Shown here piece by piece: positions 1 to 64,000 of a stretch of 64,000 bases of DNA. The position numbers were made by a program, and so were the translations under genes. How positions within the stretch are numbered: position 1 is the first letter of the stretch; every line of letters begins with the position of its first letter. Source of the stretch: Dulcicalothrix desertica PCC 7102 (lineage in GTDB: Bacteria; Cyanobacteriota; Cyanobacteriia; Cyanobacteriales; Nostocaceae); the NCBI RefSeq assembly GCF_003991905.1, contig NZ_RSCL01000020.1, positions 143,715-207,714 of the forward strand, in the 5' to 3' direction. Below the pieces are notes generated by a model. It ran no database searches. It was not told the DNA's origin and worked only from the letters and a program-made list of their open reading frames with translations.

Positions 1-58
1 AGCTATTTCTGAACCTGCTAAGGGGAACCCAGACATATGTATTACTCCTACGTGACAG

Positions 59-82
59 GAGACGTGATGAATCACATCTCTA
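59..82. repeat. Imperfect palindrome of the GAGACG family
   Basis: Arms GGAGACGTGAT and ATCACATCTCT face each other across a short loop. Similar but more perfect palindromes ending in GAGACG/CGTCTC lie at 1169-1192, 39918-39945 and inside the MITE at 58684-58775, so this is one member of a dispersed hairpin family. It may also act as a transcript end for the gene to its right. Confidence 0.45.
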
Positions 83-91
83 CATTGTTTG

Positions 92-991
92 TTATTTGGT
101 TTTGGCTGATATTGTGGGTGCTAAGACAACGGGAGTTTGTTTGACTTTTTCCTCGAATGGTCGGACTTTTTCGATTAGTTTAATAAATTGTTCGTAGTTG
201 GGTATTTTGGCAGTAGGCACATAACCAGCATCTGCGACAATATCAGCAGGCGCCTCACGCATCGATTTTTGGATTACAGAAAATAGCCTACGGTCGAGAT
301 TTGGTGATGCGAGTACAACACCTGCTGGTATCCAACGACTTGTATGTAAAACTCTAAACTTGGTTTGGGTAAATTCGCGCCGCAACGTTTCATAATCATT
401 TTCAGACATAGCAATAGCTTCAACAGTGCTATCGCTCAACCAAGTTAGTGCAGCTTTTGGAGTTGGCGCCAGTTTGATTTGTGCTAGTGTCATTCCATAC
501 AAGTCGTACAATGGCACATAAAAAGCAGCAGCGGAACCAGGTTTACCTAAAGCAATAACTCTATTAGCCAAGTCGCCAATTTTTTGATAAGGTTTATCAT
601 CACGAACCAAGATTAAAGAACGCTGCGTGCTAGTAACACCCTCCATTGAAAAAATCGGTTTATATTGTGACGAAGCAATAGCAATTGCCGCTAGTCCTGG
701 TGGTGCAAAAACGACTTCCCAGGTTTTGCGCTCTACTTGTGCAACTGCTTGTAGTTCATTGTAAGCAGGCTCAAGTTCGACAATTTTTTTAGTTTTGGTA
801 GCAATATAATCCTTAAATTGTTCGTACCTAGAAAGCAAATTGGCGCCTTCACCGTAGCTAACAACACCAATACTGAGCTTATCGATATTCGAGTTGTCAT
901 CATTATTATTCTTAGTTTCGCATCCTACTGCAAATAGTCCAATAATTAGAACTTGCAGCAGCAGAACGCGCGATAAACTCATAAATTTCAT
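92..991 (-). CDS. PhnD-like ABC transporter substrate-binding lipoprotein
   Basis: A 299-residue exported protein. The N terminus has a hydrophobic signal segment (residues 8-23) ending in the lipobox LFAVGC, so Cys24 should be lipidated and the protein anchored outside the inner membrane. The rest fits the PhnD/phosphate-phosphonate-type periplasmic binding fold, with the early strand LSIGVVSYG, a GLAAIAIASS segment and VIALGKPGSAAAFYVPLYDL typical of these proteins. No permease or ATPase gene is adjacent, so the ligand cannot be inferred; phosphonate-like oxyanions are only the family default. Family call fairly secure, substrate unknown. Confidence 0.7.
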   Translation of the reverse strand: MKFMSLSRVLLLQVLIIGLFAVGCETKNNNDDNSNIDKLSIGVVSYGEGANLLSRYEQFKDYIATKTKKIVELEPAYNELQAVAQVERKTWEVVFAPPGLAAIAIASSQYKPIFSMEGVTSTQRSLILVRDDKPYQKIGDLANRVIALGKPGSAAAFYVPLYDLYGMTLAQIKLAPTPKAALTWLSDSTVEAIAMSENDYETLRREFTQTKFRVLHTSRWIPAGVVLASPNLDRRLFSVIQKSMREAPADIVADAGYVPTAKIPNYEQFIKLIEKVRPFEEKVKQTPVVLAPTISAKTK

Positions 992-1168
992 TACAGAGAG
1001 TGAGTTATAGCGTGATGATTAATTATTTATCTGAATGAAAGTTGAAATGAAACAGTAATTAAATAAATATACTTTGCAATATTTTGTTAAAAAAGTGTTA
1101 TAAATTACTAATATAATATGTTTTTAATTGTCATTTTTAATTATTTCAATTGTTAATCAGTAACAAAT

Positions 1169-1192
1169 AGAGACCGTATTAATACGGTCTCT
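1169..1192. repeat. 24-bp perfect palindrome
   Basis: AGAGACCGTATT is followed directly by its own reverse complement. It lies in the AT-rich 992-1215 gap between two minus-strand genes, just after the Uma2 stop codon, where it could end that transcript. Same hairpin family as 39918-39945. Confidence 0.6.
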
Positions 1193-1215
1193 ACAGATGT
1201 TAATTTAGAATTTAA

Positions 1216-1965
1216 TTATATTTCTGGCTCAATCCCCATTGCTCGCAATTGGTTTGCTAATCTTTCGGCACGCTGACTTTCTTGTTCAGCACGCTGACTT
1301 TCTTGTTCAGCACGCTGACTTTCTTGTTCAACCAGTTCGGTGCCCCAAAGCAAAAGATTTCCTTCTTCATCCCACCAGCGCAACCAGTACCCAGTTCGAT
1401 TTTCTTTAGTCCCTTGCCATACTCCAAGGAAAAGGTTCATTTGAGAAACCCAATAACGATTATTTTGGTCAGCATCTTGTATGGTGTACTTTCCAGAAGT
1501 ATTTAAAACGTAAAACTCAATATCACCTGTATCAGGCTGAAATATCACATAGTTACTCACCTTTAAAATGGTCTCGTAAAAATACCATTTGCCTGGTGGG
1601 TAAGTTGGTTTTACAGAATACTCATTGCCTTCGGTATCAGAAACAAATTCTACGACAATTACAGGCATATCACCTTGTAAAGTCGGTGTATAACTGCGCT
1701 CTACTTCGCTTCTAGGTACGATAATATTAGGTATATATGTCCAATCAGGCGCCTTAATTACATATTTACCATTTACTTTCACGCATATACCATAATTGGT
1801 AGGAGTTAAAGCATTTGCTGGCAGTTTGCCATTCATTTCTAAAATTTCAGATAATGCTGCTGCAAGTGAGGGTTGGTTGATATTATCCACTGGTTCTGAA
1901 GGTAATACATAATCATCAGGTAGTTTTTCCCACGTCACTTGTAGTTGGGCAGGAGATATTATCAT
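1216..1965 (-). CDS. Uma2 family (DUF820) putative endonuclease
   Basis: A 249-residue protein of the Uma2/DUF820 family, which is greatly expanded in cyanobacteria and has a PD-(D/E)XK restriction-endonuclease-like fold. Typical landmarks are VTWEKLPDDYVLP near the start, IVPRSEV and VVEFVSDTEGNE in the core, KWYFYETILKVSNYVIF, then GYWLRWWDEEGNLL. The C terminus (about 218-245) is a tandem EQESQRA heptad tract predicted to be coiled coil, encoded by three 21-bp DNA repeats. The biological role of Uma2 proteins is not established. It is separated from radA by a repeat-rich gap. Confidence 0.8.
   Translation of the reverse strand: MIISPAQLQVTWEKLPDDYVLPSEPVDNINQPSLAAALSEILEMNGKLPANALTPTNYGICVKVNGKYVIKAPDWTYIPNIIVPRSEVERSYTPTLQGDMPVIVVEFVSDTEGNEYSVKPTYPPGKWYFYETILKVSNYVIFQPDTGDIEFYVLNTSGKYTIQDADQNNRYWVSQMNLFLGVWQGTKENRTGYWLRWWDEEGNLLLWGTELVEQESQRAEQESQRAEQESQRAERLANQLRAMGIEPEI
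1268..1330 (-). repeat. Three tandem 21-bp repeats inside the Uma2 gene
   Basis: Units 1268-1288, 1289-1309 and 1310-1330 are identical or nearly so. They encode the EQESQRA repeats at the C terminus. The unit length is a multiple of three, so copy-number change would lengthen or shorten the coiled coil without a frameshift. Confidence 0.85.
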
Positions 1966-2320
1966 GACTTTTTTCCAATTGAGTACAAATTGTTAAGGAA
2001 AAACTCTGTAGATATATATACAGTAAGTTACCTTTTAATAAACCAAAGCTTGTGTCTGTTTTTAAACTGTACTATTAATTGTACAAAACTTAAAAGAGTA
2101 AAAACGCCTCGGTACCGAAGCGTCTTTACTCTTTTATTATGCAAACGGGTTATCAATTTACAATATTCAAAGCGTGAAAACTTTGAAGATGCTTCGGTAC
2201 CGAGGCATGACATAAAAGATGCTACCCTGCGGGAAAACTGCGTTAACGTTCCTCAGCATGACAGAAGTCGAGATTTTACCCGTTTGCAGTACAACTACTC
2301 AGCACGAGCGCACTCAGCAC
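1966..2320. repeat. Intergenic mosaic of palindromes between radA and the Uma2 gene
   Basis: No gene is supported here. A 44-bp inverted repeat (2092-2135) is centred on CGGTACCG with outer arms AAAAGAGTAAA/TTTACTCTTTT. A second palindrome, ATGCTTCGGTACCGAGGCAT, occupies 2189-2208. From 2218 to about 2253 the sequence matches the inner part of the 189-bp MITE found at 46753-46941 and 54247-54435 (GATGCTACCCTGCGGG and following bases), then diverges. The strong hairpins could end transcription of radA. Confidence 0.6.
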
Positions 2321-3943
2321 TTAATAATCAGTACTTTCGACTTCATCGTCGTCATCGGGGGCAAAATCTTCAACACTGAGTGATTGTTGAGGAATTGCGG
2401 CGATAATAGCGTCGATAACTTTTGCTACTGGTATAATCTCGATATCTAATTCGGGGAATTTTTGCCCTTTTGGGACAATTGCGCGCTTAAATCCGAGTTT
2501 TGCTGCTTCTTTGAGTCGCATTTCCATTTGCGAAACTGGACGAACTTGTCCACCTAAACCGACTTCACCAATTAGCACTGTACTCGAATCTACTATTCGG
2601 TCTCGGAAACTCGCTACTAAGGCAATGGCAACTCCTAAGTCAACGGCAGGTTCTTCGACGTTTAAACCACCTACAGAAGCTACATAAGAATCTAGCTTTG
2701 ACATTGGAATTCCTACTCGCTTTTCTAGAACTGCGAGAATTTGCACTAGACGGTTATAGTCAATACCTGTTGTGGAACGACGTGGAGATGAGTAACTTGT
2801 TGGACTTACTAATGCTTGTAGTTCAACTACGATGGGACGTGTTCCTTCACACGCTACTACTATTGCACTTCCAGGCGCCGGGTCATCGCGGTTTCCTAAA
2901 AATAATTCTGATGGGTTGGGTACTTCTCGTAACCCGTTGGCAACCATTTCAAAAATACCAATTTCATGAGTGGCACCAAAACGGTTTTTAACGGTTCGTA
3001 GTAAACGGTGTGAAGCAAACCTGTCACCTTCAAAGTAAAGCACTGTATCTACAAGGTGTTCTAATACCCTTGGTCCTGCAATTGCACCTTCTTTAGTCAC
3101 GTGTCCGACTATCAACATCGTGATATCTTCGTGTTTTGCGACTTTCATTAGGGCTGCTGTACATTCGCGTACCTGTGCTACTGAACCAGGCGACGATGCA
3201 AGACTTGGGAAAAATACCGTTTGAATACTGTCTATTACCGCTAAATCTGGCTTTAAAGAATCAATTTCGCGCAATATTTCTTCTAAATCTGTCTCTGGCA
3301 AGATGTACAAATCGGCGCCTACTGATTTAGTCGTTTCAATTAAAGGTATTTCTTCTAACTTTATGCTTTTAGTCGCATTTCCGTTTTCACTATTAACGGT
3401 ATTACCATTACCATTCTCTGGGTTTTCTATTTCTACAGGGTTATCAGTAGGCGCCTCAATATCGATGGTTGGTGAAACCCCCAAACGTGAAGCACGCAAT
3501 TTTACCTGTTGTCCAGATTCTTCACCAGAAATATACAGAATACGATAACGCTGTGCGAGTTGATTCGATACCTGTAACAACAGCGTTGATTTACCAATAC
3601 CAGGGTCTCCACCGATGAGTACCATCGAACCAGGTACTACACCCCCACCTAAAACACGGTCGAGTTCGCCGTATCCTGAAGGTAAACGTAAAACTTGACG
3701 GTCGCTAATTTGGTCGAACCTGAGAGATGCCCGTGCTTTTGGAGGTTTCTTAGCAGTTTTGTTGTTGCCTGATTGATTGTGCCAGCTACCAACACCCCGA
3801 CTTGGAGAAGCATCACTGGCAGCTTGGTTAGAAATTTGTTCTTCCAGCGAATTGTAGGTACCGCAACCGGGACACCGACCGAACCACTGTGGTGATTCAC
3901 AACCGCATTCGTTGCAAACGTAAATTGTACGAGACTTTGGCAT
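2321..3943 (-). CDS. radA: DNA repair protein RadA
   Basis: A RecA-like ATPase with a Lon-protease-like C-terminal domain that helps process recombination intermediates by driving branch migration. The N-terminal zinc finger uses Cys10, Cys13, Cys24 and Cys27. The Walker A motif GGDPGIGKST is at 111-120, the RadA signature KNRFGAT follows in the ATPase core, and the Lon-like domain starts around DYNRLVQILAVLEKR. At 540 residues it is longer than most RadA proteins because of an Asn/Glu-rich low-complexity insertion at about 163-208. The acidic tail DDDDEVESTDY is probably disordered. It is transcribed divergently from rpaB across a 167-bp gap. Confidence 0.95.
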   Translation of the reverse strand: MPKSRTIYVCNECGCESPQWFGRCPGCGTYNSLEEQISNQAASDASPSRGVGSWHNQSGNNKTAKKPPKARASLRFDQISDRQVLRLPSGYGELDRVLGGGVVPGSMVLIGGDPGIGKSTLLLQVSNQLAQRYRILYISGEESGQQVKLRASRLGVSPTIDIEAPTDNPVEIENPENGNGNTVNSENGNATKSIKLEEIPLIETTKSVGADLYILPETDLEEILREIDSLKPDLAVIDSIQTVFFPSLASSPGSVAQVRECTAALMKVAKHEDITMLIVGHVTKEGAIAGPRVLEHLVDTVLYFEGDRFASHRLLRTVKNRFGATHEIGIFEMVANGLREVPNPSELFLGNRDDPAPGSAIVVACEGTRPIVVELQALVSPTSYSSPRRSTTGIDYNRLVQILAVLEKRVGIPMSKLDSYVASVGGLNVEEPAVDLGVAIALVASFRDRIVDSSTVLIGEVGLGGQVRPVSQMEMRLKEAAKLGFKRAIVPKGQKFPELDIEIIPVAKVIDAIIAAIPQQSLSVEDFAPDDDDEVESTDY

Positions 3944-4110
3944 TTTAATTTAGTTAAATAATCTTAATTTTTCCTTAAGTTTTAGGCAAAAGTAAAAGCT
4001 AGTAATCGCAAGCCTTGTAGGTTTTTACTAACGAATAATAGGAATGATATCTTAATAATATGGTAGTAAAAATTAATCATGCAAAGTTTAGTTAAGGAGC
4101 GTTGAGAAAC

Positions 4111-4839
4111 TTGGAAAGCCATAAAGAAAAAATCCTAGTGGTAGACGATGAGGCTAGCATTCGTCGAATATTGGAAACGCGCCTTTCGATGATTGGCTAC
4201 GAAGTAGTCACCGCTGGGGATGGAGAAGAAGCTTTGGAAACATTCCGCAAAGCCGAACCCGACTTGGTAGTTTTGGATGTAATGATGCCAAAATTGGACG
4301 GGTATGGGGTTTGTCAAGAATTACGTAAAGAATCAGATGTACCTATCATTATGTTAACAGCCCTAGGAGATGTGGCTGACCGCATCACAGGGCTGGAATT
4401 AGGTGCTGATGACTACGTAGTCAAACCATTTTCTCCGAAAGAACTCGAAGCTCGAATCAGGTCTGTTCTCCGCAGAGTAGATAAGACAGGAATTTCAGGC
4501 ATTCCAAGTTCAGGCGTGATTCATGTCAGCACTATAAAAATTGATACAAATAAACGTCAAGTTTATAAAGGTGATGAACGCATCCGGTTGACAGGAATGG
4601 AATTTAGCTTACTTGAATTACTCGTAAGTCGTTCTGGGGAAGCATTTTCTCGGTCAGAAATTTTGCAAGAAGTTTGGGGATACACACCCGAACGTCACGT
4701 AGACACCCGTGTCGTAGACGTACATATATCTAGACTCCGTGCAAAACTAGAAGACGACCCAAGCAACCCAGAATTAATATTGACAGCACGAGGTACAGGC
4801 TACCTTTTTCAACGCATTATCGAACCGGGTGAAGAGTAA
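4111..4839 (+). CDS. rpaB: Response regulator RpaB (OmpR/PhoB family)
   Basis: Essential cyanobacterial transcription regulator of photosystem and high-light genes and of phycobilisome-photosystem energy transfer. The receiver domain (about 6-120) has the acidic pocket VVDDE, phosphoacceptor Asp56 in LVVLDVMMP and the conserved Lys in DDYVVKPF. The OmpR-type winged helix fills the C-terminal half (EVWGYTPERHVDTRVVDVHISRLR). The start is a TTG either way. I chose 4111, giving MESHKEKIL as in known RpaB proteins, with AAGGAG at 4094-4099; a TTG at 4102 would sit too close to that ribosome binding site. A 4-unit heptamer repeat follows the stop codon. Confidence 0.93.
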   Translation: MESHKEKILVVDDEASIRRILETRLSMIGYEVVTAGDGEEALETFRKAEPDLVVLDVMMPKLDGYGVCQELRKESDVPIIMLTALGDVADRITGLELGADDYVVKPFSPKELEARIRSVLRRVDKTGISGIPSSGVIHVSTIKIDTNKRQVYKGDERIRLTGMEFSLLELLVSRSGEAFSRSEILQEVWGYTPERHVDTRVVDVHISRLRAKLEDDPSNPELILTARGTGYLFQRIIEPGEE

Positions 4840-4846
4840 ATAATTA

Positions 4847-4876
4847 GTTAGGAGTTAGGAGTTAGGAGTTAGGAGT
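4847..4876. repeat. Heptanucleotide tandem repeat (GTTAGGA)4
   Basis: Four exact GTTAGGA units, directly after the rpaB stop codon. Such short tandemly repeated repetitive sequences are typical of heterocystous cyanobacteria. The same heptamer recurs in both orientations at 41353-41470. Confidence 0.85.
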
Positions 4877-4981
4877 AAAAGACTTGACACGAGACTAAAT
4901 TGCTTACCCATATAATATTAGTTAAGAATTGTGAATACTAAATTTGATAACAATAAATTTAAATTCATAATTCTTAACTCC

Positions 4982-5043
4982 TGTACGGGTGGGTTTACCA
5001 AATTTTTGGTTAGTTACTAGCATATAGGTTAACCCGCCCCTCC
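4982..5043. repeat. GGGCGGGTT-type dispersed hairpin repeat, copy 1
   Basis: About 62 bp with ends GGTGGGTTTAC and GTTAACCCGCC and an AT-rich middle. Close relatives lie at 36902-36961 and 48748-48806. All three lie between genes, two just upstream of a start codon and one between trmD and ispF. Confidence 0.7.
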
Positions 5044-5063
5044 TAACTCATAACTTTTGACTT

Positions 5064-5702
5064 ATGGCAAAAGAAGATCAAAATCGCGTAATCAGGCGCC
5101 TACCGCTAGTAGTGGGTATGTTAGGTGCCGTATTATTGTTTATAAATAGAATATTTACACCAGAACTAACAAACTCCCAATCGCGCGCCGATGTTTTGGG
5201 AGTAATATTAAGTGCTTTATTAGTATTAACAGGGATGCTATGGCAACAAGTGCAAGCCAGAACACCTGACGCAGTTGAATTAATTGGAGAAGAAGGATTT
5301 GAATTGGTAACTGACTTACCAGATACAGTTAAAAACGAATTAGCCTGGGCTTCGCGATTATTACTACTTAATACAGTCACGCGCTCAATCGTCGTAGTCT
5401 ATAAAGGTAAAGTTATATTACGGCGAGGAATATTAGGACAAAAATCAGAAGTAAAACCGGGGGCAATATTAAATCTAGTACTCGAAAAACAAAAAGCAGT
5501 TTATTTAGTTGACGTTAAAGCTTACCCAGGCAAAATAGAGTTTGATTATTTACCAGAAAACACACAAGGCATAATTTGTCAACCAATAGGTTTTGATGGT
5601 GCAATGATATTAGGCGCCAACGCACCACGTAGTTACACCCGGCAAGACGAAAACTGGATAGCTGGAATAGCCGATAAACTAGCTGTTAGTCTAGAAGGAT
5701 AA
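5064..5702 (+). CDS. Cofactor assembly of complex C subunit B (CCB-type)
   Basis: A 212-residue protein with two hydrophobic segments (about 12-30 and 45-62) followed by a soluble domain with the conserved stretches GEEGFELVTDLP and ELAWASRLLLLNT. This matches the CCB2/CCB4-like family, whose members attach heme c(n) covalently to cytochrome b6 in thylakoids of cyanobacteria and chloroplasts. It is followed 19 bp later by a DUF456 membrane protein on the same strand, probably cotranscribed. The assignment rests on recalled family resemblance, so CCB2 and CCB4 are not distinguished. Confidence 0.72.
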   Translation: MAKEDQNRVIRRLPLVVGMLGAVLLFINRIFTPELTNSQSRADVLGVILSALLVLTGMLWQQVQARTPDAVELIGEEGFELVTDLPDTVKNELAWASRLLLLNTVTRSIVVVYKGKVILRRGILGQKSEVKPGAILNLVLEKQKAVYLVDVKAYPGKIEFDYLPENTQGIICQPIGFDGAMILGANAPRSYTRQDENWIAGIADKLAVSLEG

Positions 5703-5721
5703 AACCTCTAATCGAGAGAGT

Positions 5722-6237
5722 ATGCAAATTATTTATTGGTCGTTAGTAGTTGTAATGATATTTGGTATAGTTGGCGCCGTCGTTCCAGCTTTACCAGGAA
5801 GTAGTTTGATATTAATCGCGATTGTTATTTGGGGTGTAGTGCAAAAATCTTTTGCAGCAATTAGCACACCCCTCATTGTCACTGGCGTAGTTTTGCTATT
5901 AAGTATTGGTGTGGACTTCCTTGCGGGTTATATTGGCGCCAAAAAAGCAGGTGCTAGTAACTGGGGACAAATAGGCGCCTTTGTAGGTTTAATAGTGGGA
6001 TTTTTAGGTTTACTACCTGCGCTTCCTGTTGGTGGTCCATTGTTAGGTATGCTACTTGGACCACTACTAGGAGCAATTATAGGTGAGTACTTGTACTGCA
6101 AAAATTTTCAAACTGCCATAAAAGCTGGTATTGGCATCGTCGTCGGTACAGTAGTAGGAAACTTAATCCAAGGACTACTCGCAATCGCCGCAGTCGCCGT
6201 ATTTATTTACACCACCTATCCCCAAGTATTTAACTAA
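5722..6237 (+). CDS. DUF456 family membrane protein
   Basis: A 171-residue, strongly hydrophobic protein with about five membrane segments. The glycine/alanine/proline-rich start GIVGAVVPALPGSSLILIA and the repeated motif VGGPLLGMLLGPLLGAIIGEYL are hallmarks of DUF456. Function is unknown for the family. It follows the CCB-type gene by 19 bp. Its transcript probably ends at the hairpin 6291-6316, shared with the convergent PEP-CTERM gene. Confidence 0.8.
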   Translation: MQIIYWSLVVVMIFGIVGAVVPALPGSSLILIAIVIWGVVQKSFAAISTPLIVTGVVLLLSIGVDFLAGYIGAKKAGASNWGQIGAFVGLIVGFLGLLPALPVGGPLLGMLLGPLLGAIIGEYLYCKNFQTAIKAGIGIVVGTVVGNLIQGLLAIAAVAVFIYTTYPQVFN

Positions 6238-6290
6238 ATATTATACATTAATGTGATGATGTTAAATAGATATTTTGTGGAATGATCTTG

Positions 6291-6316
6291 TGGAATGGGC
6301 ATCCCTGCCCGTTCCA
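6291..6316. terminator. Intergenic GGGCAT-loop hairpin, shared transcript end
   Basis: TGGAATGGGC and GCCCGTTCCA pair across a short loop between two convergent genes. It belongs to the most frequent hairpin family of the window (CTTGTGG..GGGCATCC..GCCC), with further members near 7442-7475, 7536-7565, 17336-17362, 23345-23369, 24833-24862, 31286-31312, 41690-41718, 44768-44799, 48187-48223 and 54141-54170. Use as a terminator is inferred from position. Confidence 0.55.
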
Positions 6317-8244: not shown

Positions 8245-8318
8245 CAAAATCTCTCTCTTTAAACGATATAAAACTAAAAATTGTTTGAATAGAGGTGAAT
8301 ATCTAAAGACAGTAGTGA

Positions 8319-9880: not shown

Positions 9881-9883
9881 TTA

Positions 9884-33212: not shown

Positions 33213-34916
33213 TTAGTAGTGGTTGCCGGATTTGCGGTGGTGTACTGCGGTGACGCTATCTTGGTTTAGGACTTTACCGTCGTCTACTGTGGCGTATACT
33301 AGCCAGTGGTCGCCTACTTCCATGCGGTCTTTGACTGTGCATTCTAGGTAAGCTAAGGCGCCCATTAAAACAGGTGAACCGTTTGCTGCATCAGTAGTTT
33401 CTAGTCCGGCGAATCTGTCTTGACCAGGTGCGTAGTTTTTCATGAAGTGTTTACGGATTTCTCGGCCTTCGGCTAATATATTGACGACGAAGGGGTTTCC
33501 GGTGTGCATTAAAGTTTCTAATGCGCGGTCTTTGGCTACGGATATTGTTAAACCAGGGGGACTAAAGCTTGCCTGTGATATCCACGATGCAAGCATGGCG
33601 CTTGATACATCGCCTTGTTTGGCTGTAACTACTGATAGGGAACCGAGAATTCTTCCTACTGCTTGTTCTAAGCTGCTTGCTGGTGCGCTTGCTACGCGAA
33701 CTCGGTTTGTGCGTTTTATTGCTTGGGCAAAGTCGGTTCCTGCTTCTTCACAGAATTGGATGGTTTTATCGTCAGGTTTGAATTTGACGCGGATGGGGTC
33801 AAACCCAAAACGATATCCTCCGTCTTTGAGTTTTGTTTCCAAGATGTCAATAGCTTCGCCGCTCCATCCATAGGAACCAAATACTCCTGCTAGTTTAGTT
33901 TTACTTGCATTTGCTAGTACTATACCTAAAGCTGTTTGTACGGGTGTGGGTGCGTGTCCTCCTAGTGTGGGGGAACCCATGATAAACCCGGCTGATTTTT
34001 CTACTGCTTCTTGAATTTCTGCTGGGTCGGCAAATTCACAGTTGATTGATTCTACCCTTACACCTGCTTTGGTTATTCCGTGAGCAATGGCTTGAGCTAC
34101 TGTTGCGGTATTTCCGTAAGCGGAAGCGTAAATTAATGCTACGGTGTTTTCTTGATTAGTTTGCTGCTGTATCCATTCGCGATACGATTTAGTTAGTTCG
34201 ATTAATCCGTAACGAACCATTGGCCCGTGGTTAGGAGCATACATTCGCACTTTCAAGTCAGATAGTTTTTCTAGTGCTGTATCAACTTGACGCGCGTGAG
34301 GCGCCATTACACACTCAAAGTAATATCTTCTATCCTCTAGGAACGATTGCCAACCTTCATCAAATACTTGGTCGCCACATATATGGGCACCAAATAATTT
34401 ATCTGTGTATAAAATTTCTGTCTGTGGGTCGTAAGTGCAAAGTTCGTCAGGATAACGAGGATTAGGTGTAGGAATAAATTCGAGGTGGTGTCCTTTTCCT
34501 AAATCTAGTGTTTCTTCACCACGTTTTACTAATATAGGTAAATCTGCATTTTCTAACGCACCACGTAAATTGATGGCGCCTGGATTAGAACAGACGAACG
34601 TAATTTGGGGTGCAATTTCAAATAAAGCCTTTAATGTTGCCGCACGGTTAGGGTTGACGTGACCAAGAATTACATAATCTATCTTTTTAATATCAACCCG
34701 TTGCTGTAGCGCATTTAAGAAAATTTCTGTAAAGGTTTCTCCAGGTGGGTCAATAAGCGCTATTTTATTAGCTTCGATTAAAAAACAATTGGCAGTTGTA
34801 CCCTTCGCTAAAGCATACTCAACTTCAAATCTTAAACGTGCCCAACTGCGAGAACGAAATACGCGCGTATCTGTAGCAACCGGCAAAACTTGAACATCGC
34901 GAGGTTTTATTGACAT
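33213..34916 (-). CDS. flv1: Flavodiiron protein Flv1 type
   Basis: A 567-residue class C flavodiiron protein: metallo-beta-lactamase-like domain (about 25-250), flavodoxin domain (LIYASAYGNTATVAQAIAHGI, about 260-400) and C-terminal flavin reductase domain (about 420-560, SAMLASWISQASFSPPG). The usual iron-ligand motif HxExDH is replaced by His86-Val-Asn88-Pro-Asn90-Arg91, as in Flv1-type proteins, which work as a heterodimer with Flv3. Together they photoreduce oxygen to water at photosystem I. It lies downstream of flv3 in the same direction. Whether this is the vegetative (A) or heterocyst (B) form cannot be told. Confidence 0.9.
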   Translation of the reverse strand: MSIKPRDVQVLPVATDTRVFRSRSWARLRFEVEYALAKGTTANCFLIEANKIALIDPPGETFTEIFLNALQQRVDIKKIDYVILGHVNPNRAATLKALFEIAPQITFVCSNPGAINLRGALENADLPILVKRGEETLDLGKGHHLEFIPTPNPRYPDELCTYDPQTEILYTDKLFGAHICGDQVFDEGWQSFLEDRRYYFECVMAPHARQVDTALEKLSDLKVRMYAPNHGPMVRYGLIELTKSYREWIQQQTNQENTVALIYASAYGNTATVAQAIAHGITKAGVRVESINCEFADPAEIQEAVEKSAGFIMGSPTLGGHAPTPVQTALGIVLANASKTKLAGVFGSYGWSGEAIDILETKLKDGGYRFGFDPIRVKFKPDDKTIQFCEEAGTDFAQAIKRTNRVRVASAPASSLEQAVGRILGSLSVVTAKQGDVSSAMLASWISQASFSPPGLTISVAKDRALETLMHTGNPFVVNILAEGREIRKHFMKNYAPGQDRFAGLETTDAANGSPVLMGALAYLECTVKDRMEVGDHWLVYATVDDGKVLNQDSVTAVHHRKSGNHY

Positions 34917-34927
34917 AAGAGTTATGA

Positions 34928-35030
34928 GTGCTGAGTGCTGAGTGCTGAGTTTTGAGTGCTGAGTTTTGAGTGCTGAGTGCTGAGTATAAAGTTTTAAATT
35001 AAAATTCCTAACTCAGCACTCAGCACTTTC
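34928..35030. repeat. Heptamer repeat (GAGTGCT)n between flv3 and flv1
   Basis: Several GAGTGCT units with two GAGTTTT variants, then an inverted set CTCAGCACTCAGCAC near 35018. Together they can fold into a long imperfect hairpin between the two flv genes. The same heptamer occurs at 59094-59121 and in part at 41380-41405. Confidence 0.8.
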
Positions 35031-35045
35031 AACTCATAACTTGAT

Positions 35046-46616: not shown

Positions 46617-46752
46617 ATATATAGGATTCCTATGCTGAAATCATATGAGTATATCTACTTAGTTAGTAAATTAATTCCGTAGATACACTGTTTGTGGCAA
46701 TTATCATAGCAAATTTTTTGATTTCGACATTCAAGTGGAGGCGCCTTTCTTA

Positions 46753-46941
46753 GAGGATGTTTGAAAAGTCGGCTCAGGTATAAATTGTCCCAAGCGAGTG
46801 GAGTCTTACGGAACGTAATGCGGAGCATTTGCCGCAGGCTAGAATCTAGGGTTTTGAACATATACTGAGATGCTACCCTGCGGGAAAACTGCGTTAACGT
46901 TCGCGACTCATGACATTCACGGACACTTTTCAAACAACCTC
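46753..46941 (-). mobile_element. 189-bp MITE-like element, copy A
   Basis: Ends GAGGATGTTTGAAAAGTC and (reverse complement) GAGGTTGTTTGAAAAGTG form imperfect terminal inverted repeats. TTA lies directly on both sides (46750-46752, 46942-46944), consistent with a target duplication. It is the inverted copy of 54247-54435, same length, with about two mismatches seen. It contains a spurious ORF starting MKSVRECHESRTL. Confidence 0.85.
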
Positions 46942-46948
46942 TTACAGT

Positions 46949-56428: not shown

Positions 56429-56526
56429 ATACCGTGTTATATCAAGCTTTTTCACGGTTATAGCTACAAGGTACAGGTATTTGCAAGAAGCGCGCCTTTA
56501 TTACACAGAAACTTTAAAATACATAA

Positions 56527-56898: not shown

Positions 56899-56906
56899 AT
56901 AAAAAC

Positions 56907-57176: not shown

Positions 57177-57182
57177 AGAGCT

Positions 57183-57278
57183 ATTTTATCTATTCCTGTT
57201 CATAGTAATCGAGATTTACCAATAGGTACTTTGAAAAGTATTATGAATGATGCAGGGCTGACGGAAGAAGATTTATAA
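57183..57278 (+). pseudogene. HicA toxin C-terminal remnant
   Basis: The frame ILSIPVHSNRDLPIGTLKS followed by IMNDAGLTEEDL and a stop at 57276-57278 is the C-terminal half of a HicA mRNA interferase (motif PVH then GTLxxI and the AGL-EE end). The N-terminal half with the catalytic His region and any hicB are missing. Confidence 0.75.
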
Positions 57279-57390
57279 TTTTATAAGTATTTAATTAGTT
57301 ATAGCTAAATAACGTGGAGTCGTCAGTTTGATTCCGGCGCCTCCACGTACATAATAGTTTGTGTAAATTTAATCACTTACACGCTCGATT

Positions 57391-57846
57391 TTATTCTTGT
57401 GTTTCTTCGCTTGGTTCTGACTCGGTTTGTTCCGCTTCTGGTTCAGGTTCAGCTTTCGCAACAGGTCTAACTGGTTTGGGACCGCGCGCTAATGCTGGAT
57501 TAGCTGGTGGTCTCGAATCATCACCGAAGGAACCTTTTTTACCTTTGCCGGAGCGTTTATCTTTACGGTCGTTTCTGTCATTACGGTCGTTACGGTCATC
57601 ACGGTCGTTACGCTTTGAACCTAAGCGGATTGAATCACGAGAGTCTTCAACATCTGAATCTTGGGAATCTTTGTCAGTTCTCTTTTTAAGTACAGGTAAA
57701 GGAACAGGTGAAGACTGAGGTTGTGATTCTAATTGCGGTTCTGCTTGTGCTTCTGTTTGTGGTTCTGCTTGCGGTTCTGCTTGTGGTTCCGATTGAGTTT
57801 CAGCAATCGCCTGACGTTCAGATTTCTTGATTGGACGTTCTACCAT
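57391..57846 (-). CDS. Low-complexity, probably disordered charged protein
   Basis: A 151-residue protein starting MVERPIKKSERQAIAE, followed by a Gln/Pro/Glu tract (QAEPQAEPQTEAQAEPQ), a charged middle with RNDRNDRNDRNDRKD repeats and an acidic end. It has no membrane segment. The repeats are also visible in the DNA (CGGTCGTT units near 57570-57610). No known family; the pattern is that of a disordered, possibly RNA-associated protein. Confidence 0.55.
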   Translation of the reverse strand: MVERPIKKSERQAIAETQSEPQAEPQAEPQTEAQAEPQLESQPQSSPVPLPVLKKRTDKDSQDSDVEDSRDSIRLGSKRNDRDDRNDRNDRNDRKDKRSGKGKKGSFGDDSRPPANPALARGPKPVRPVAKAEPEPEAEQTESEPSEETQE

Positions 57847-57996
57847 TGTTAATTTATATTAAGGTAATTGTATGATACCGCGCTTTGGTGATATGTAAAG
57901 TCGCAGTATCACTTCAAGTTGAAACGGTATATAACGAGTTTACTAGGAGTAGAGTAAAACAACATGCGGTTTTCATACTCCTTTGGAGGTTTTACA

Positions 57997-58597
57997 ATGG
58001 CATACAACGAATTTACTTGGGGTAAAGCTAGGCAAGATTTTGGGTTAACGGCAATTGAAGGAACGCGCTTTTTCGGTGAAATTGAACCAGTGGCGCCGAG
58101 TGAAATGTTTACGGATGTTACTCGCACGCAGTTTACCTTGGGCAACCGCAACAGGAAATGAGAAATCGTTTATGAAGGTATTATTAATCCGATTTTGTTA
58201 GAAGTACGCGATATATTAGAGCGACAAATTAGCGTGTTTTCGGGTGAGAAGTTTGATGTTGACGCAAGCGTTGGGCTGGACGGTTTCTGTGATTTCTTGA
58301 TTAAAATCATCTGAACAAATTGAAGTTGAGGCGCCTGTCGTTGTAGTTGTAGAAGCAAAACAAGAAAATATAAAATCTGGGTTGGGACAATGTGCGGCAA
58401 CAATGGTAGCTGCTCAAAGGTTTAATCAAAATAAACAGCTATCTGTTAAAGCTATTTACGGCAGCGTTAGTACTGGGACGCAATGGCGGTTTTTGAAACT
58501 TGAGGGAAATATTTTAACTTTAGATTTAATGGATTATCCAATTCCACCTGTAGAGCAAATTTTGGGCTTTTTGGTTTGGATAATGAAGCAAAATTAA
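57997..58597 (+). pseudogene. Cyanobacterial PD-(D/E)XK-like protein, two disabling mutations
   Basis: Begins MAYNEFTWGKARQDFGLTAIEG after a good GGAGGT site (57985-57990). An in-frame TGA at 58159 interrupts it; the frame then gives EIVYEGIINPILLEVRDILE and VDASVGLDGFCDFLI. At about 58304 an extra A in an A run shifts the frame, after which KSSEQIEVEAPVVVVVEAKQ and GQCAATMVAAQRFN run to a stop at 58595. The family is common in cyanobacteria; VVVVEAK would be the nuclease motif. Non-functional here. Confidence 0.8.
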
Positions 58598-58611
58598 TTA
58601 CATGGGATACT

Positions 58612-59020
58612 TAACGGCGCCTAATTTCCTAGAGGATAAGTTAGATATTGATATATCCTCTAGGAAAAAGACCCAACGGCGCCCAATACTGCTCGGTTAA
58701 CGTATTCAAAGACGTGACATGTCACGTCTCTACAGGGCTTTTACGTTTCGCAATTGTCTTAACCGAGCAGTATTGCAACGGCGCCAAAATTTCTAGGTAA
58801 AAACTAATATATATGTTCATTCCCTAAAAAAATAGCCAACGGCGCCTAATTTCCTAGAGGATAAGTTGGATATAGATATATCCTCTAGGAAAAAGACCCA
58901 ACGGCACCAAAATTTCTAGGTAAAAACTAATATATATGTTCATTCCCTAGAAAAATAGCTAATGGCGCCCAATTTCCTAGAGGATAAGTTGGATATTGAT
59001 ATATCCTCTAGGAAAATGTG
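58612..59020. repeat. 123-bp tandem hairpin array
   Basis: Three copies of a 43-bp hairpin (TTTCCTAGAGGATAAG...CCTCTAGGAAA at 58625-58667, 58850-58892, 58973-59015) alternate with two copies of an AAAATTTCTAGG...CATTCCCTA segment (58786 and 58908). Spacing between hairpins 2 and 3 is 123 bp. Between 1 and 2 it is 225 bp, which becomes 123 bp when the inserted MITE and its 10-bp duplication are removed. GGCGCC or GGCACC marks each junction. Confidence 0.88.
58684..58775. mobile_element. CAATACTG-ended MITE inserted in the tandem array
   Basis: 92 bp with near-perfect ends CAATACTGCTCGGTTAA and TTAACCGAGCAGTATTG. Flanked by 10-bp duplications CAACGGCGCC (58674-58683 and 58776-58785). Interior carries a GACGTGACATGTCACGTC palindrome, unlike the interior of the xisI copy. 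Confidence 0.88.
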
Positions 59021-59093
59021 GATGGGTACTTCTTATTTTCTCTCCTCTGTGGTAAAAAACTATGTAACTGTACAGGCTTTTCATGCTGTGCTA

Positions 59094-59121
59094 CTCAGCA
59101 CTCAGCACTCAGCACTCAGCA
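59094..59121. repeat. Heptamer repeat (CTCAGCA)4
   Basis: Four exact units ahead of the hydrolase stop codon, the inverse of the GAGTGCT repeats between flv3 and flv1. Confidence 0.85.
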
Positions 59122-59132
59122 CTTTTAACTAA

Positions 59133-61982
59133 TTAAAATGTGATAGGCGCCACTGGTTCGATGTCTGGGTTAAAGCCTCCTATTTGGTTGGTTCGCAGTA
59201 CCCATGCGGTGGCGCCAAGTTTGAGAAATGTTTCTAAGACGGTATCGTTAGCTACACGAGGGAGTATGGCACGCCAAGATAGTAAGCCAGTAACTAGGTT
59301 TTTAATGGGGTCGTCTTCTAAGCTGCTTCCTAAACTTTTGCCTGGTTGTTGCCAGTCTACACGCGCACCAAAAGGAAGAATTTGACGTTTTAATTTTTTA
59401 CCTAGTTCTTCAAGTTGGGTTAAATTATCTGCTTGGTCGGGATGTTGTTCTATCCATTCGTCAATGAGAGAATTAGAACGGATGACTTGAGTTATTTGTT
59501 TGAGTGCTGCATATAAAGCTTGGTTGGAGTCTTGAGAACAGTTGTTTGCGGCGCCTACATAGGTACCTCCTGTTCCGTCACCGATACGATAGCGTGCTGC
59601 CATAATTTCGAGTTGGCGAATCATTTGGTCTAAAGGTGAATATACTGTACCTTCGGTGGTTTCAAAGTATCCCGTGAAGGGTTCAAATTTAATTAAAGTA
59701 TCACATACGGGACGTATCCCTGCCCAACCATATTGACGGTCACCTAAAAATCGTGACCAGTGTAATGTTCCTGCTGTTAACCCATCTATATTTTGGGTGT
59801 ATATTTGATGGTACACAATATCAAATCGTAGTTCGTCTGTTAATGGTTCGCGTACTACTGTTGCTACACCATAAGCGAAGTGTCCAAAGTATACAGGCCC
59901 TTTTGCTGCTGCCTCAGTTTTTCTACCGCCAATCCCACCGTAGTTATGTAGTAGCAGCGCGCGTTCTCCTTCTCGCCAAGTTTGTTCGCTCTGTATATTT
60001 GAGTCGTCATAACAAAGTAAAGCTGAACTTATTTTACCTTTTTGCAGAGCTAAATTATCCCAAGATTCTTTTTTAATATAGTGTTTTACTTCAGATTTCC
60101 CGATGATTTTATGTTCTGGTTTCAATTGAAAAAGCGCGCGGGGAGCAATTGAACGCACTACAAATCGTTTAGACTCATTTTGGGCGCCATATATATACCA
60201 CCCGGTTTGATTAATCGGTGAAGAGTCAATATCTTGGTTTGTAAATGGTTGTACACCATCAACATTCGCTACTACAGAAGGCATTGATACAAATTCTTCG
60301 GCACCATCAAATTGTTTAGAATCACGGTTGTAATGTATTACCCGGAATAAATCATTCCCTATTGGCTCAATAAATTGTACTAATGCGTAATATAAGCCTG
60401 TTATTTGTATTGGTTCACGTTTGATACAAAGATAATCTTTATCACCTATCTCCATTAACATTGGGTCATCTAACATTACCATGATGTCATCATAAGGATG
60501 GGCGCCTGCTAATGATTCGAGGGGGTTTACTAGGCGCCAGTGATTAACACGGGTAGGAAGAATTAAGCCTTGCTCGCTACTATACTCTGCTTCAGCGTTG
60601 AAATGCACATCTTTTGTTACTGAGCGGATATCTTTTTGTAACTCTGGAATATCTGAAAAGCGTAATTGCACGACTTTTCCAAGTAAATACTCATAACCTT
60701 TTGCAGTATGATGCACCTCAAATAAGACTTCTTTAATAACACTACGCTGATTTTTTGGTGGCAAAATTAGGCGCCCCATCCAAGCAGCGATAGGTTGATA
60801 CTCTTGAGGTAAAGATTGCTTATTCGGGTAAAAATCTGGATGGTTAAATGTAGCTTCCCAATATTTTTCGTAGTTGCTTTGACGACGTGGAGGAGCAAGT
60901 TCTTTTAAATAAACTGTATCTTGTAAAATTCCAGATACCCAATCAATCGTTTGCTGTAAATAAGTGCGACCATCGGGTAAAAGTTTATTTGGATCCATCA
61001 CTCCCCCAGGTTGTTGATGACCAACTTTACCCAAAGAAATTAAGCTAACTTTACCGCGTCGCTTTGCACGGTTCCAATAAGACAGAAAAAATAACTTCCA
61101 ACGTTTAGGAAAAGCAATGGCGCCTAACCTTTCCAATGGGTCTTTTTTTCCAGCTAGATGATAAACATGTTGAATTTTAAGAATATTATTATTACCACTG
61201 AACACTCCCCCTAGAGAGATAATATCAATTGGTGGTGAAAAAAGTACATCATCAAGATAGGGAGCAGCAGCCATTGATATTTGTCCCCCACCGCTAAATC
61301 CAATTAAGGTGATGGGAACATTACTACCTGCCTGATAACCATGTTTTATTAAACTGTTATATATTACTTGTGCGGTTCCTCGATTGTAAATGGCGCCATA
61401 TCTTTGGTCAGCAGAAACCCACACTACTAATGCATTGCGTATATTAATGATGGCGCCAAGAATATTCGCAGGATTTTTGATACGTAGTTTATCAGCAAAT
61501 CGCCAAAACCAAGATAATGGGTAATCTTCAGTTAAAGAACGATTTAATACCGAATATGGCATTACTCCCCGTATTAAATGAAAACTTTCGGGTAATGCTG
61601 CCGTTAAATCCCTGAGAAATCGCTCTACATCAGGTAAATATTCGTACTTTGCTTGTCCAACTCCGTCTAAGTAAATAATATAATGAGATACTTTATGTAG
61701 TGGCGCCTCAGTTTGCGTTTCAACTTCAGAGTAAATACTTGTATCAACGGTATCACCAAACCATCCAGCCCACCAACCGAGTGCTTCTATAGGCGCCAAC
61801 ATTGCCGCCAAAATCAAAGCAATAAAACCAATAATACCTAGATTAACTGTAATTTTAAATGTACGTGTTAATGCTGCATAAGTACCATTTATAACAGGTT
61901 GAAACTGAAATAAAGCTAATACACCAAGCAATGCTACCAGAGCTATGACAGAAAATTTGATAACTTGCTTTCTACTACTCAT
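59133..61982 (-). CDS. Large membrane-anchored alpha/beta-hydrolase-like protein
   Basis: A 949-residue protein with two or three N-terminal membrane segments (about 8-25, 46-75). A domain with the hydrolase elbow ITLIGFSGGGQISMAAAPYL (about residues 230-250) follows YIIYLDGVGQAKYEYLPDV. A long C-terminal part of unknown fold ends with GDGTGGTYVGAANNCSQDSNQALYAAL, a Cys-containing stretch that I recall in related cyanobacterial proteins. Start codon overlaps the stop of the Yip1 gene (ATGA). Likely a membrane-bound lipase or esterase, but this is inferred from the elbow only. Confidence 0.65.
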   Translation of the reverse strand: MSSRKQVIKFSVIALVALLGVLALFQFQPVINGTYAALTRTFKITVNLGIIGFIALILAAMLAPIEALGWWAGWFGDTVDTSIYSEVETQTEAPLHKVSHYIIYLDGVGQAKYEYLPDVERFLRDLTAALPESFHLIRGVMPYSVLNRSLTEDYPLSWFWRFADKLRIKNPANILGAIINIRNALVVWVSADQRYGAIYNRGTAQVIYNSLIKHGYQAGSNVPITLIGFSGGGQISMAAAPYLDDVLFSPPIDIISLGGVFSGNNNILKIQHVYHLAGKKDPLERLGAIAFPKRWKLFFLSYWNRAKRRGKVSLISLGKVGHQQPGGVMDPNKLLPDGRTYLQQTIDWVSGILQDTVYLKELAPPRRQSNYEKYWEATFNHPDFYPNKQSLPQEYQPIAAWMGRLILPPKNQRSVIKEVLFEVHHTAKGYEYLLGKVVQLRFSDIPELQKDIRSVTKDVHFNAEAEYSSEQGLILPTRVNHWRLVNPLESLAGAHPYDDIMVMLDDPMLMEIGDKDYLCIKREPIQITGLYYALVQFIEPIGNDLFRVIHYNRDSKQFDGAEEFVSMPSVVANVDGVQPFTNQDIDSSPINQTGWYIYGAQNESKRFVVRSIAPRALFQLKPEHKIIGKSEVKHYIKKESWDNLALQKGKISSALLCYDDSNIQSEQTWREGERALLLHNYGGIGGRKTEAAAKGPVYFGHFAYGVATVVREPLTDELRFDIVYHQIYTQNIDGLTAGTLHWSRFLGDRQYGWAGIRPVCDTLIKFEPFTGYFETTEGTVYSPLDQMIRQLEIMAARYRIGDGTGGTYVGAANNCSQDSNQALYAALKQITQVIRSNSLIDEWIEQHPDQADNLTQLEELGKKLKRQILPFGARVDWQQPGKSLGSSLEDDPIKNLVTGLLSWRAILPRVANDTVLETFLKLGATAWVLRTNQIGGFNPDIEPVAPITF

Positions 61983-62647
61983 CTTCGTCTCCTGCGGTGC
62001 GTGCGCTTATTTCCAAAACCTGTTTGCAAAGTTTCTTCTAATTGTCGCAAATCAGTGACAAGATAAGTTCCTGCCGCAGTATTAGATAACCACTTTCCAA
62101 AACCTGCTACTGGTCTACCAATACTACGCTGTGCCACCTGAAGTACAAACCAACCAATAATACCGCACCAGAAGACTTGCCACAAAGTTAAATCAGCGGT
62201 AATTGAAAATCCTCGCACAAATGCTAGCAAGTTCCACAGCGATAGCAAAATTTGAACTGGAATCCCCAAATACGGTAACGCAATGAAGAACGAAAGCAAT
62301 AACGGCGCCGTTGCTAGTCCCAAAGTGCGATACACTACACCAAACTGAACATCTGCTCTAAATAGTAAATTACTAACACCCCAAATGCTCAAAACCCAAA
62401 ATAAATAACTAAAAGCAAATAACAATGCTGAAATAAGTAAACATAAAACAAAACGTAACCTACTAACTCGATTTACAAATAATACAATTGCTTGAGCTAG
62501 CGCATTAGAAAGACCCACCAACAACAGCAAAATAAAAATTGACCTATTACCTTGAGGAAAACCTTCCATCATCCTAAATGCTTCTGGGTTCAGCGTTATT
62601 GCTGCTATTACCACTTCCCAGAATTTATTTAGTAATTGAGTACTCAT
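61979..62647 (-). CDS. Yip1-domain integral membrane protein
   Basis: A 222-residue protein with about five membrane segments (SIFILLLLVGLSNALAQAIVLFV, LRFVLCLLISALLFAFSYLFWVL and on) and the layout of YIP1-family proteins. The basic C terminus GNKRTHRRRRR is cytosolic by charge. It overlaps the next gene by 4 bp, so stoichiometric coupling with the hydrolase is likely. Function unknown. Confidence 0.7.
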   Translation of the reverse strand: MSTQLLNKFWEVVIAAITLNPEAFRMMEGFPQGNRSIFILLLLVGLSNALAQAIVLFVNRVSRLRFVLCLLISALLFAFSYLFWVLSIWGVSNLLFRADVQFGVVYRTLGLATAPLLLSFFIALPYLGIPVQILLSLWNLLAFVRGFSITADLTLWQVFWCGIIGWFVLQVAQRSIGRPVAGFGKWLSNTAAGTYLVTDLRQLEETLQTGFGNKRTHRRRRR

Positions 62648-62662
62648 AGTGAAGGCGCCTAC

Positions 62663-63223
62663 CTACCTTGGTTCTAATTTTACAAACATAAATGGTGTAT
62701 CAGGTGTTACTGAAAACGCATCGAACGAATAGTTACTCCAGATTTTTTGTTTTTCGTTGAAACCACCCAAAACCCCATTCACATAAACGTTCTCAGTGCG
62801 TTCTTTTCCATATTGGCGTACAATGCGCTGCTGTGCAACTGGAATCATAAAGTTGTTTCCACTGCCTGCATTGGATAATTCATTTCTGGGAATGACTCCT
62901 ATTTTTATTGCCGCTCCTTTGCGCGCGTTCAATGCTGTATTAATTGCATTAAGTGCGCGTTCTGCTGTTTGCTGATTTTCCCAAAATGCTGTTGTAGTTG
63001 GATTCTTAAAAATTTCACCAAACGTCCCGTAGATAAATTTTGCATTGTAGCGTCGGTTATCAATAGTTAAATTATTGATTGCTATTATATTTCCTCTTTT
63101 GTCTTTAACTAAATTGAAATTTACGTTTCTTTGCGTGGATGTTTGGGCAGGTGTTGAAATTATTGCGCTAGGGTAAAATAATGTTAAGGCGCCTGCTATT
63201 AAAAGTGAAAAAGCAATTTTCAT
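62663..63223 (-). CDS. Secreted protein of unknown function
   Basis: A 186-residue protein with a signal peptide (about 1-26, MKIAFSLLIAGALTLFYPSA). The mature part has VKDKRGNIIAINNLTIDNRRYN, then YGTFGEIFKNPTTTAFW and a C-terminal FSVTPDTPFMFVKLEPR. The pattern of short beta-strands resembles small cyanobacterial exported proteins without a named family. It heads an operon with the Yip1 and hydrolase genes, 15 bp upstream of the Yip1 start. Confidence 0.65.
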   Translation of the reverse strand: MKIAFSLLIAGALTLFYPSAIISTPAQTSTQRNVNFNLVKDKRGNIIAINNLTIDNRRYNAKFIYGTFGEIFKNPTTTAFWENQQTAERALNAINTALNARKGAAIKIGVIPRNELSNAGSGNNFMIPVAQQRIVRQYGKERTENVYVNGVLGGFNEKQKIWSNYSFDAFSVTPDTPFMFVKLEPR

Positions 63224-63364
63224 ATCTATTCAATCTTTAAATTTATACTTAGCTTATATTACTACTCCGTAATAAACGCTGTGACATAAAATCCGATTTG
63301 ATGATTTATGATTATGCAATCTTTACTATTAGTGGGTTATTTATGAAGTTTATTTAAATGCCAA

Positions 63365-63505
63365 TTGGCAACGGATACAACAGATGTAACGGATAATTTA
63401 TTCGTCAAAGATGTATATAATGTATTATATATAGATATAAATAATTAAGTAGAAATATAGTTATTTATAATTAACCATCCGTTACATCCGTTACATCCGT
63501 TGCCA
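63365..63505. repeat. GGCAACGGAT-type inverted repeat, copy 3
   Basis: TTGGCAACGGATACAAC and GATGTAACGGAT on the left face ATCCGTTACATCCGTTGCCA on the right, about 140 bp overall. The right arm encodes the end of the next gene (ATDVTDVTDG). Confidence 0.65.
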
Positions 63506-64000
63506 GCCAATCATTTACTTCGTGCGCTAACCACTCCAACTCAACCTCAGATTTAACACTGCCTGTATTAACTTTGAGTTTATACTCGTTAACACCAGCA
63601 TGAATAGTTAGCTGTGAATGAACCTCTACATGTTCACCGTCTACATCTCTGGTAAAGTGCTTAGGTGTGTAAACAACTTTATCGATATTACTAATACGCA
63701 AGCGAGTTTTACCAAATACGCAAAATATTACCCAGTACACCATAAAAACACCTACTCCCCAAAAGGGTAGGGAAAACAAAGCTAGAGCTATATTTGTGGG
63801 AGATGGCATACTCAAGGCGCCTGCTGTCCAAGCAAAAATTCCCGCGTTCCAAGCTATGGCAAATAATCCTATAAATGTTAGCGGTACGTCAACACCCGAT
63901 GGTGGTATTAATATTTCTAAAGTGTCTGCATTTTTGGTAAGTTCAATTTTACTCCCACTTGGTTTTATACCAGTAGTTACTAGTTTTGCTGGCACCTCTA
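63471..64000 (-). CDS. C-terminal membrane domain of a larger protein, possibly a kinase (partial)
   Basis: The frame is open to the window edge, so the gene is incomplete. It contains SKIELTKNADTLEILIPPSG, two or three membrane segments (LTFIGLFAIAWNAGIFAWTAGAL, LFSLPFWGVGVFMVYWVIFCVF) and a soluble end with ELEWLAHEVNDWL. The same order, LEIxIPP, membrane pair, soluble part, EITWLANLLSSAL-like end, occurs at the C terminus of the kinase at 55013, so this may be the tail of another Ser/Thr kinase. A GTG at 63995 would give a stand-alone 174-residue protein. The final residues are repeat-encoded. Confidence 0.6.
   Translation of the reverse strand, partial: EVPAKLVTTGIKPSGSKIELTKNADTLEILIPPSGVDVPLTFIGLFAIAWNAGIFAWTAGALSMPSPTNIALALFSLPFWGVGVFMVYWVIFCVFGKTRLRISNIDKVVYTPKHFTRDVDGEHVEVHSQLTIHAGVNEYKLKVNTGSVKSEVELEWLAHEVNDWLATDVTDVTDG

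Follow-up and report, generated by a model that had tools for sequence, protein, structure and literature searches.

GGCGCC as a probable alternate highly iterated palindrome throughout a Calothrix genus, with an orphan GRCGYC-type methyltransferase as the candidate enzyme

The purpose of highly iterated palindromes (HIPs) is a long-standing question about cyanobacterial genomes, and selection on one of them, HIP1 (GCGATCGC), is reportedly the subject of work by Xu, Lawrence and Durand from 2018. Here, we analyze the hexamer GGCGCC in a stretch of 64,000 nucleotides from Dulcicalothrix desertica PCC 7102 (contig NZ_RSCL01000020.1, positions 143,715 to 207,714; "the window" below), in the complete genome that contains it (G000) and in related genomes. 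It should be noted that the interpretation of GGCGCC as a HIP is not new: in a survey of 97 genomes (Elhai 2015; PMC4390886), this hexamer is presented as an "alternate HIP" of Calothrix PCC 7103, a strain described there as having two GRCGYC methyltransferases, a broken CGATCG methyltransferase and very few GATC sites, and alternate HIPs are argued to be sporadic and not to occur in clades. PCC 7103 (G060) is a congener of the window genome, and the putative methylase P0001, discussed below, is 99% identical between the two. The phenomenon itself is therefore known from a congener; what is new here is its genus-wide extent, the contrast between an orphan methylase and its relatives, and the substitution pattern.

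GGCGCC occurs 127 times in the window (GC content 0.396), compared to Markov expectations of 3.8 (order 0), 6.2 (order 1) and 5.7 (order 2), and is by a wide margin the most over-represented 6-mer palindrome, followed by CGCGCG (22 copies versus 6.4 expected at order 1). The counts of HIP1 and CGATCG are both 0. An earlier sequence-only reading of the window had put GGCGCC at about 125 copies for about 4 expected and had seen no HIP1, and both statements hold. At order 4, the maximal Markov order for a 6-mer, the expectation is 66.5, because the 5-mers used at this order derive from the GGCGCC sites themselves. In a 464-kb sample of the same genome, which comprises the window and 20 stretches of 20 kb, we found 808 GGCGCC sites and one GCGATCGC; the observed-to-expected ratio (O/E) is 21.4 at order 1 and about 24 at order 2, so that the Markov-corrected expectation is far from the observed count. 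The complete genome (11.42 Mb, 109 contigs) contains 19,393 copies of GGCGCC and a single copy of the reversed control CCGCGG, whereas HIP1, with 58 copies versus 62 for its own control, is not abundant elsewhere in the genome either. The placement of the sites in the window, determined with 49 of the 54 listed open reading frames (ORFs; five were dropped as likely spurious overlaps), is as follows:

Window 1..64000, no strand: 127 GGCGCC sites, 100 within 49 ORFs and 27 outside.

The coding sites are divided 56/18/26 among the codon frames. The 56 sites in frame 0 (GGC GCC) are what could be expected if the excess were an artefact of GC content, codon usage or dispersed repeats; however, the O/E values of 21 and 24 at orders 1 and 2 in the 464-kb sample, the sites outside ORFs, the reversed control seen once in 11.4 Mb, and two relatives with a GC content of 0.41 that are nearly devoid of GGCGCC (0 in samples of 19-20 kb each, 4-5 genome-wide) make such an artefact extremely improbable. 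The sites are not spread evenly, as had been claimed, but randomly, in all three frames and both in ORFs and outside them (coefficient of variation of the spacing in the window, 0.98). Among 787 gaps in the 464-kb sample, those shorter than 100 bp fall below the random expectation (0.113 versus 0.165+-0.013), and the fraction above 1500 bp is 0.072, compared to 0.069 at random; beyond about 100 bp, the spacing of GGCGCC is random. This bears on the model put forward in Elhai's paper (PMC4390886), in which mismatch repair directed by G-m5C (m5C, 5-methylcytosine) ratchets GRCGYC near-misses into GGCGCC, up to about one site per 1000 bases, with the sites being a by-product without necessary function and a second methyltransferase copy possibly having been critical. 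As we read it, a set-point near 1 kb should produce regular spacing, in contrast to the random spacing observed.

The excess of GGCGCC was traced in a family set of 217 genomes, seven of the Calothrix genus and 210 others. The enrichment is genus-wide: all seven examined genomes contain 7,475-20,380 copies each (1150-1711/Mb), compared to a median of 3.7/Mb and a maximum of 110.8/Mb in the 210 other genomes. HIP1 is present in 31-163 copies per genome in the seven (controls, 37-75) and in more than 1,100 copies in 206 of the 210 others, the genomes below this level being G182 (30), G194 (535), G191 (574) and G184 (990). This clade-wide occurrence is contrary to the sporadic pattern stated by Elhai. 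One group of C5 methyltransferases, DmtC-like, is common to all five HIP1-rich genomes examined and was unseen in the genus. The DmtC-like m5C gene (E<=1e-100) was detected in 201 of the 217 family genomes, all of them outside the genus, and in 0 of the seven genus genomes, where m4C (N4-methylcytosine) versions were not searched for; from this distribution only, we infer that the gene is specific for CGATCG.

To find candidate enzymes, the seven genomes were searched with PF00145, and 60 open frames were clustered at 55% identity, short partial matches being left out. Two groups of C5 methyltransferases are common to all seven genomes, represented in the window genome by the following genes:

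G000:C4:441733-442671, (-) strand, outside the window: P0001 (group 0), C5 methyltransferase, 313 amino acids.
G000:C20, at about 114 kb, some 29 kb ahead of the start of the window: P0002, second genus-wide C5 methyltransferase.

P0001 matches PF00145 at 7.9e-66, has M.HaeIII as the nearest solved structure, and is 55% identical to an Escherichia coli plasmid gene annotated hindVM. Relatives of P0001 (E<=1e-40) are found in 63 of the 217 genomes, i.e., in all seven of the genus and in 56 others. The positions of its recognition loop were placed from residues 225 and 227 of M.HaeIII, which we take to be the relevant ones. With the M.HaeIII numbering of the BsaHI paper (PMC2413257), the BsaHI-class loop (R at -12 and G/A at -10 from the TL motif) is present in 23 of 24 family sequences, the 24th not having been extracted, a fit obtained only if the distances count intervening residues. 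The neighbors of P0001, a RuBisCO-like protein and a GHL10/SLH protein, are kept in G000, PCC 7103, PCC 7716, C42, NIES-4105 and FI2; in the seventh genome, HK-06, the matching copy seems to be split into two contig-end pieces, 94-95% identical, the locus apparently being cut there. The ratio of nonsynonymous to synonymous substitution rates (dN/dS) of P0001 is 0.05-0.16 in four comparisons. Only one group-0 gene is present in each of G000 and G063; thus, a second copy is not needed, contrary to what Elhai's model allowed for. In favor of that model, the central C of the site is the base methylated by M.BsaHI, a P0001-type enzyme (PMC2413257), a condition that Elhai had called unknown.

By homology, we consider P0001 an orphan GRCGYC-type (BsaHI/HindV) m5C methyltransferase, predicted to be able to modify GGCGCC. 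The sequence-only reading had proposed that the lineage uses another palindrome, that GGCGCC has taken over the role of HIP1, and that it perhaps has a methylase of its own. The first proposal is supported by the loss of HIP1, the HIP-like density of GGCGCC and a homology-based candidate enzyme. A takeover of the role of HIP1 is hypothetical. As for the methylase, an orphan candidate predicted to act on GGCGCC was found in all seven genomes, namely P0001. A specificity limited to GGCGCC is likewise hypothetical; its family is of the GRCGYC type, a pattern that covers GGCGCC and three sites that are depleted here (GACGCC, GGCGTC and GACGTC; O/E in the 464-kb sample 0.36, 0.31 and 0.05).

P0001 is an orphan in the genus because its restriction partner, RE_HindVP, was found in none of the seven genomes; the enzyme is present in 43 of the 217 family genomes (in 42 over its cut-off). 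Where coordinates were compared, RE_HindVP lies within about 60 bases of the P0001-like gene in genomes such as G169, G054, G067, G057, G050, G059 and G004, and on a separate contig in G066. In CSU_2_0, the neighbor of the P0001-like gene is RE_HindVP (2e-154), and both CSU_2_0 and C. elsteri contain, at this locus, WGKNQF and SPERRFD, two motifs known from the BsaHI enzyme. When the 210 non-genus genomes are divided into four classes, with methylase fragments scored as present, the median density of GGCGCC is 0.71/Mb with both genes (39 genomes), 6.08/Mb with the methylase and no RE_HindVP (17), 1.16/Mb with RE_HindVP and no methylase (4), and 5.09/Mb with neither (150). The classes with both genes and with neither differ significantly (Mann-Whitney p 1.2e-6, no kinship correction), whereas the methylase-only class shows no difference from the class with neither (p 0.57, likewise uncorrected). 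In G076-G079, four genomes of a single genus that are rich in HIP1 and have a P0001-like methylase, with no RE_HindVP found, GGCGCC has 144-277 copies versus 9-42 for the control; this modest excess is perhaps an early stage.

We also compared the sites among the congeners. In undirected pairwise alignments of the contig region (G000:C20) with six congeners, the pairs of which share history and are not independent, the shared fraction of GGCGCC is 0.48-0.79, compared to 0.18-0.60 for other all-G/C hexamers; for the G063 pair, at 19% divergence, it is 0.48 versus 0.18. GGCGCC is thus better conserved than other G/C hexamers. Among one-base differences from GGCGCC, 189 of 256 are transitions in the central CpG, either C>T in position 3 or G>A in position 4 (68 of 90 in the window alone), the pattern expected from methylation of this C. 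Where G/C positions are 4-fold degenerate, differences are seen in 3-24% of cases in the flanks of GGCGCC, compared to 13-65% elsewhere, while the center is at the background level in three of the six genomes and lower than that in the remaining ones. We read this pattern as suggestive of a methylated, deaminating center within an otherwise retained site. The central differences show a strand asymmetry, G>A in position 4 (119) being more frequent than C>T in position 3 (70). The possibility that GGCGCC replaced HIP1 in place was examined in alignments with two HIP1-rich relatives and rejected; 13 HIP1 sites could be aligned for each relative, and GGCGCC stands in the place of none of them.

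The same differences help in weighing how the sites are kept. Elhai's model, as published for PCC 7103 in PMC4390886, permits the one-step conversion of GGTGCC to GGCGCC, a point in its favor; however, the route through GACGCC/GGCGTC accounts for 10 of 256 differences versus 189 through GGTGCC/GGCACC. These few differences are due in part to the rarity of GACGCC/GGCGTC themselves (26 copies versus 90 of GGTGCC/GGCACC in 464 kb). Taken with the random spacing, the single methyltransferase copies and the clade-wide occurrence, we consider the model in its published form unlikely. Very-short-patch (Vsr) repair tied to the methylase, turning GGTGCC into GGCGCC, would find its expected substrate in the central C>T differences; in E. 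coli, Vsr acts on CCWGG. Its action should deplete GGTGCC/GGCACC, but their O/E is 0.92 (no depletion), and the Vsr domain (PF03852) was detected in one of the 217 family genomes and in none of the seven of the genus; canonical Vsr repair was therefore rejected, and we consider this route very improbable. The random spacing and the lack of Vsr in the seven genomes speak against two proposed routes of upkeep. If the (methylated) GGCGCC site were itself under direct selection because of some function, e.g., in recombination, in the structure of the nucleoid or in the uptake of DNA, this would explain the conservation at synonymous positions, the excess of shared sites at 19% divergence (0.48 versus 0.18 for G063) and the presence of GGCGCC in seven of seven genomes. 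On the other hand, random spacing, the use of all codon frames and the location in gene interiors match no specific architecture, and the same data also fit a repair bias, so that we regard this explanation as doubtful.

We consider it probable that this Calothrix genus has GGCGCC as its alternate HIP, with the following history. The common ancestor would have lost the HIP1 system and retained, from a GRCGYC restriction-modification system that was otherwise dead, the methylase, which would modify the central C (GG-m5C-GCC); GGCGCC sites would then have accumulated and would still be held. The central C would decay via deamination to GGTGCC/GGCACC, the rest of the site being held tighter, including at synonymous positions. 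Retention is the least certain step and could involve a repair bias or selection for the methylated site; the repair version would be a methylation-linked correction of T:G back to C:G in the GGCGCC context. Retention through a repair bias of some kind is nearly, though not quite, an even proposition; retention through selection is a possibility to which we give less weight, and retention through something else appears rather improbable. The case for and against a single HIP switch before the seven lineages split is evenly balanced; in such a switch, HIP1 and its m5C methylase would have been lost, and the orphaned methylase of a restriction system would have turned into the central enzyme of a new HIP, itself now retained at synonymous sites, with one methylase family going along with opposite effects on the genome. 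Within this family, the median density is 0.71/Mb where the restriction enzyme is present, versus a more than 1000-fold higher density where neither this enzyme nor HIP1 is left.

Several observations weigh against this history. HIP1 is somewhat above its control in three of the seven genomes (G060, G061 and G063), the excess being up to fourfold in G063 (147 versus 37). Nine other genomes without the DmtC-like gene keep 2,878-7,016 copies of HIP1, and G182 has the gene yet contains 30 copies; therefore, the gene is neither sufficient nor strictly needed for HIP1. None of the 17 non-genus genomes with a P0001-like match (some of them fragments) and no RE_HindVP exceeds 43 GGCGCC/Mb, and an orphan methylase alone is thus insufficient. 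If the loop distances are counted literally, the P0001 family has R or K at -11 but I at -9, the latter being at odds with the BsaHI-class pattern. GRCGYC specificity leaves the depletion of GACGCC, GGCGTC and GACGTC unaccounted for, and P0002 is also present in all seven genomes, with relatives in four of the five HIP1-rich genomes examined. The CpG bias is partly general, as central differences make up 45 of 82 for AGCGCT and 52 of 72 for ATCGAT, and TG/CA at the central CpG, compared to other CpGs, is commoner in three of six genomes, equal in one and slightly rarer in two. Finally, in a class-wide sample of 388 genomes, some outside the family reach a similar GGCGCC density, with a high control count too: G435 has 9,489 copies in 3.8 Mb (control, 2,450), and G502 has 5,932 in 3.3 Mb (control, 2,807). 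In samples of G435 (GC content 0.54), GGCGCC exceeds its expectation 3.8-fold, and CGGCGCCG does so 24-fold.

G435, a cyanobacterium of another family, also differs from its relatives, with 9,489 GGCGCC genome-wide versus 304-343 in three congeners; 75 kb of it contain 78 copies of CGGCGCCG versus 3.25 expected, and one HIP1, and CGGCGCCG may possibly be a further alternate HIP. In four genomes whose genome-wide GGCGCC count is raised against the control, no excess was seen in small samples, namely of G561 (19.8 kb), G448 (34.5 kb), G512 (53.2 kb) and G194 (60 kb). Among other palindromes, CGCGCG ranks second in over-representation among the 6-mers of five sampled congeners too (O/E 3.7-8.5, highest in NIES-4105), and several are avoided in the 464-kb sample (order 1): GATC (112 versus 1083 expected), GGCC (95 versus 818), TGCGCA (0 versus 108) and CCGCGG (0 versus 29). 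Such strong avoidance suggests several past restriction systems. Two dispersed repeats in the window, at 46749-46944 and 34916-35042, have many copies in congeners at about 72-96% identity.

A genus with a swapped HIP, standing beside HIP1-containing relatives and relatives whose methylase is still tied to a restriction enzyme, provides natural controls, and these additions make the question of HIPs testable. Elhai's model is the only published model for GGCGCC found in the literature searched; our results weaken it in two respects, the second methyltransferase copy and the saturation near 1 kb, and take away the argument against clade-wise occurrence of alternate HIPs.

Compared to known systems, GGCGCC resembles HIP1 in being a short GC-rich palindrome of similar density, both genic and intergenic, with a tie to solitary methyltransferases; it differs in sequence, HIP1 itself being at 0 in the window and at the control level in the genome. 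Like the BsaHI, HgiDI and HindV systems of GRCGYC specificity, as described in PMC2413257, P0001 has the methyltransferase fold and recognition-loop pattern, and in many non-genus relatives the gene adjoins RE_HindVP; unlike them, the genus has RE_HindVP in none of seven genomes, and GGCGCC is enriched and not avoided. Gross genome-wide over-representation and depressed HIP1, the marks of an alternate HIP in Elhai's sense, are both found here, and P0001, by homology and recognition-loop residues, is the putative capable methyltransferase. The DmtC-like m5C gene, a putative counterpart of the CGATCG methyltransferase reported as lost or broken in PCC 7103, was found in none of the seven genomes. 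The closest match is the alternate HIP of PCC 7103, which shares the hexamer, the genus, the scarcity of HIP1 and GATC, and a GRCGYC-type methyltransferase. The present case differs from that report in concerning another genome, in the extension of the trait to all seven genomes of the genus, and in that one group-0 copy suffices in two of them instead of the two methyltransferases of PCC 7103; it adds the comparison with relatives bearing the restriction enzyme and the conservation of the sites.

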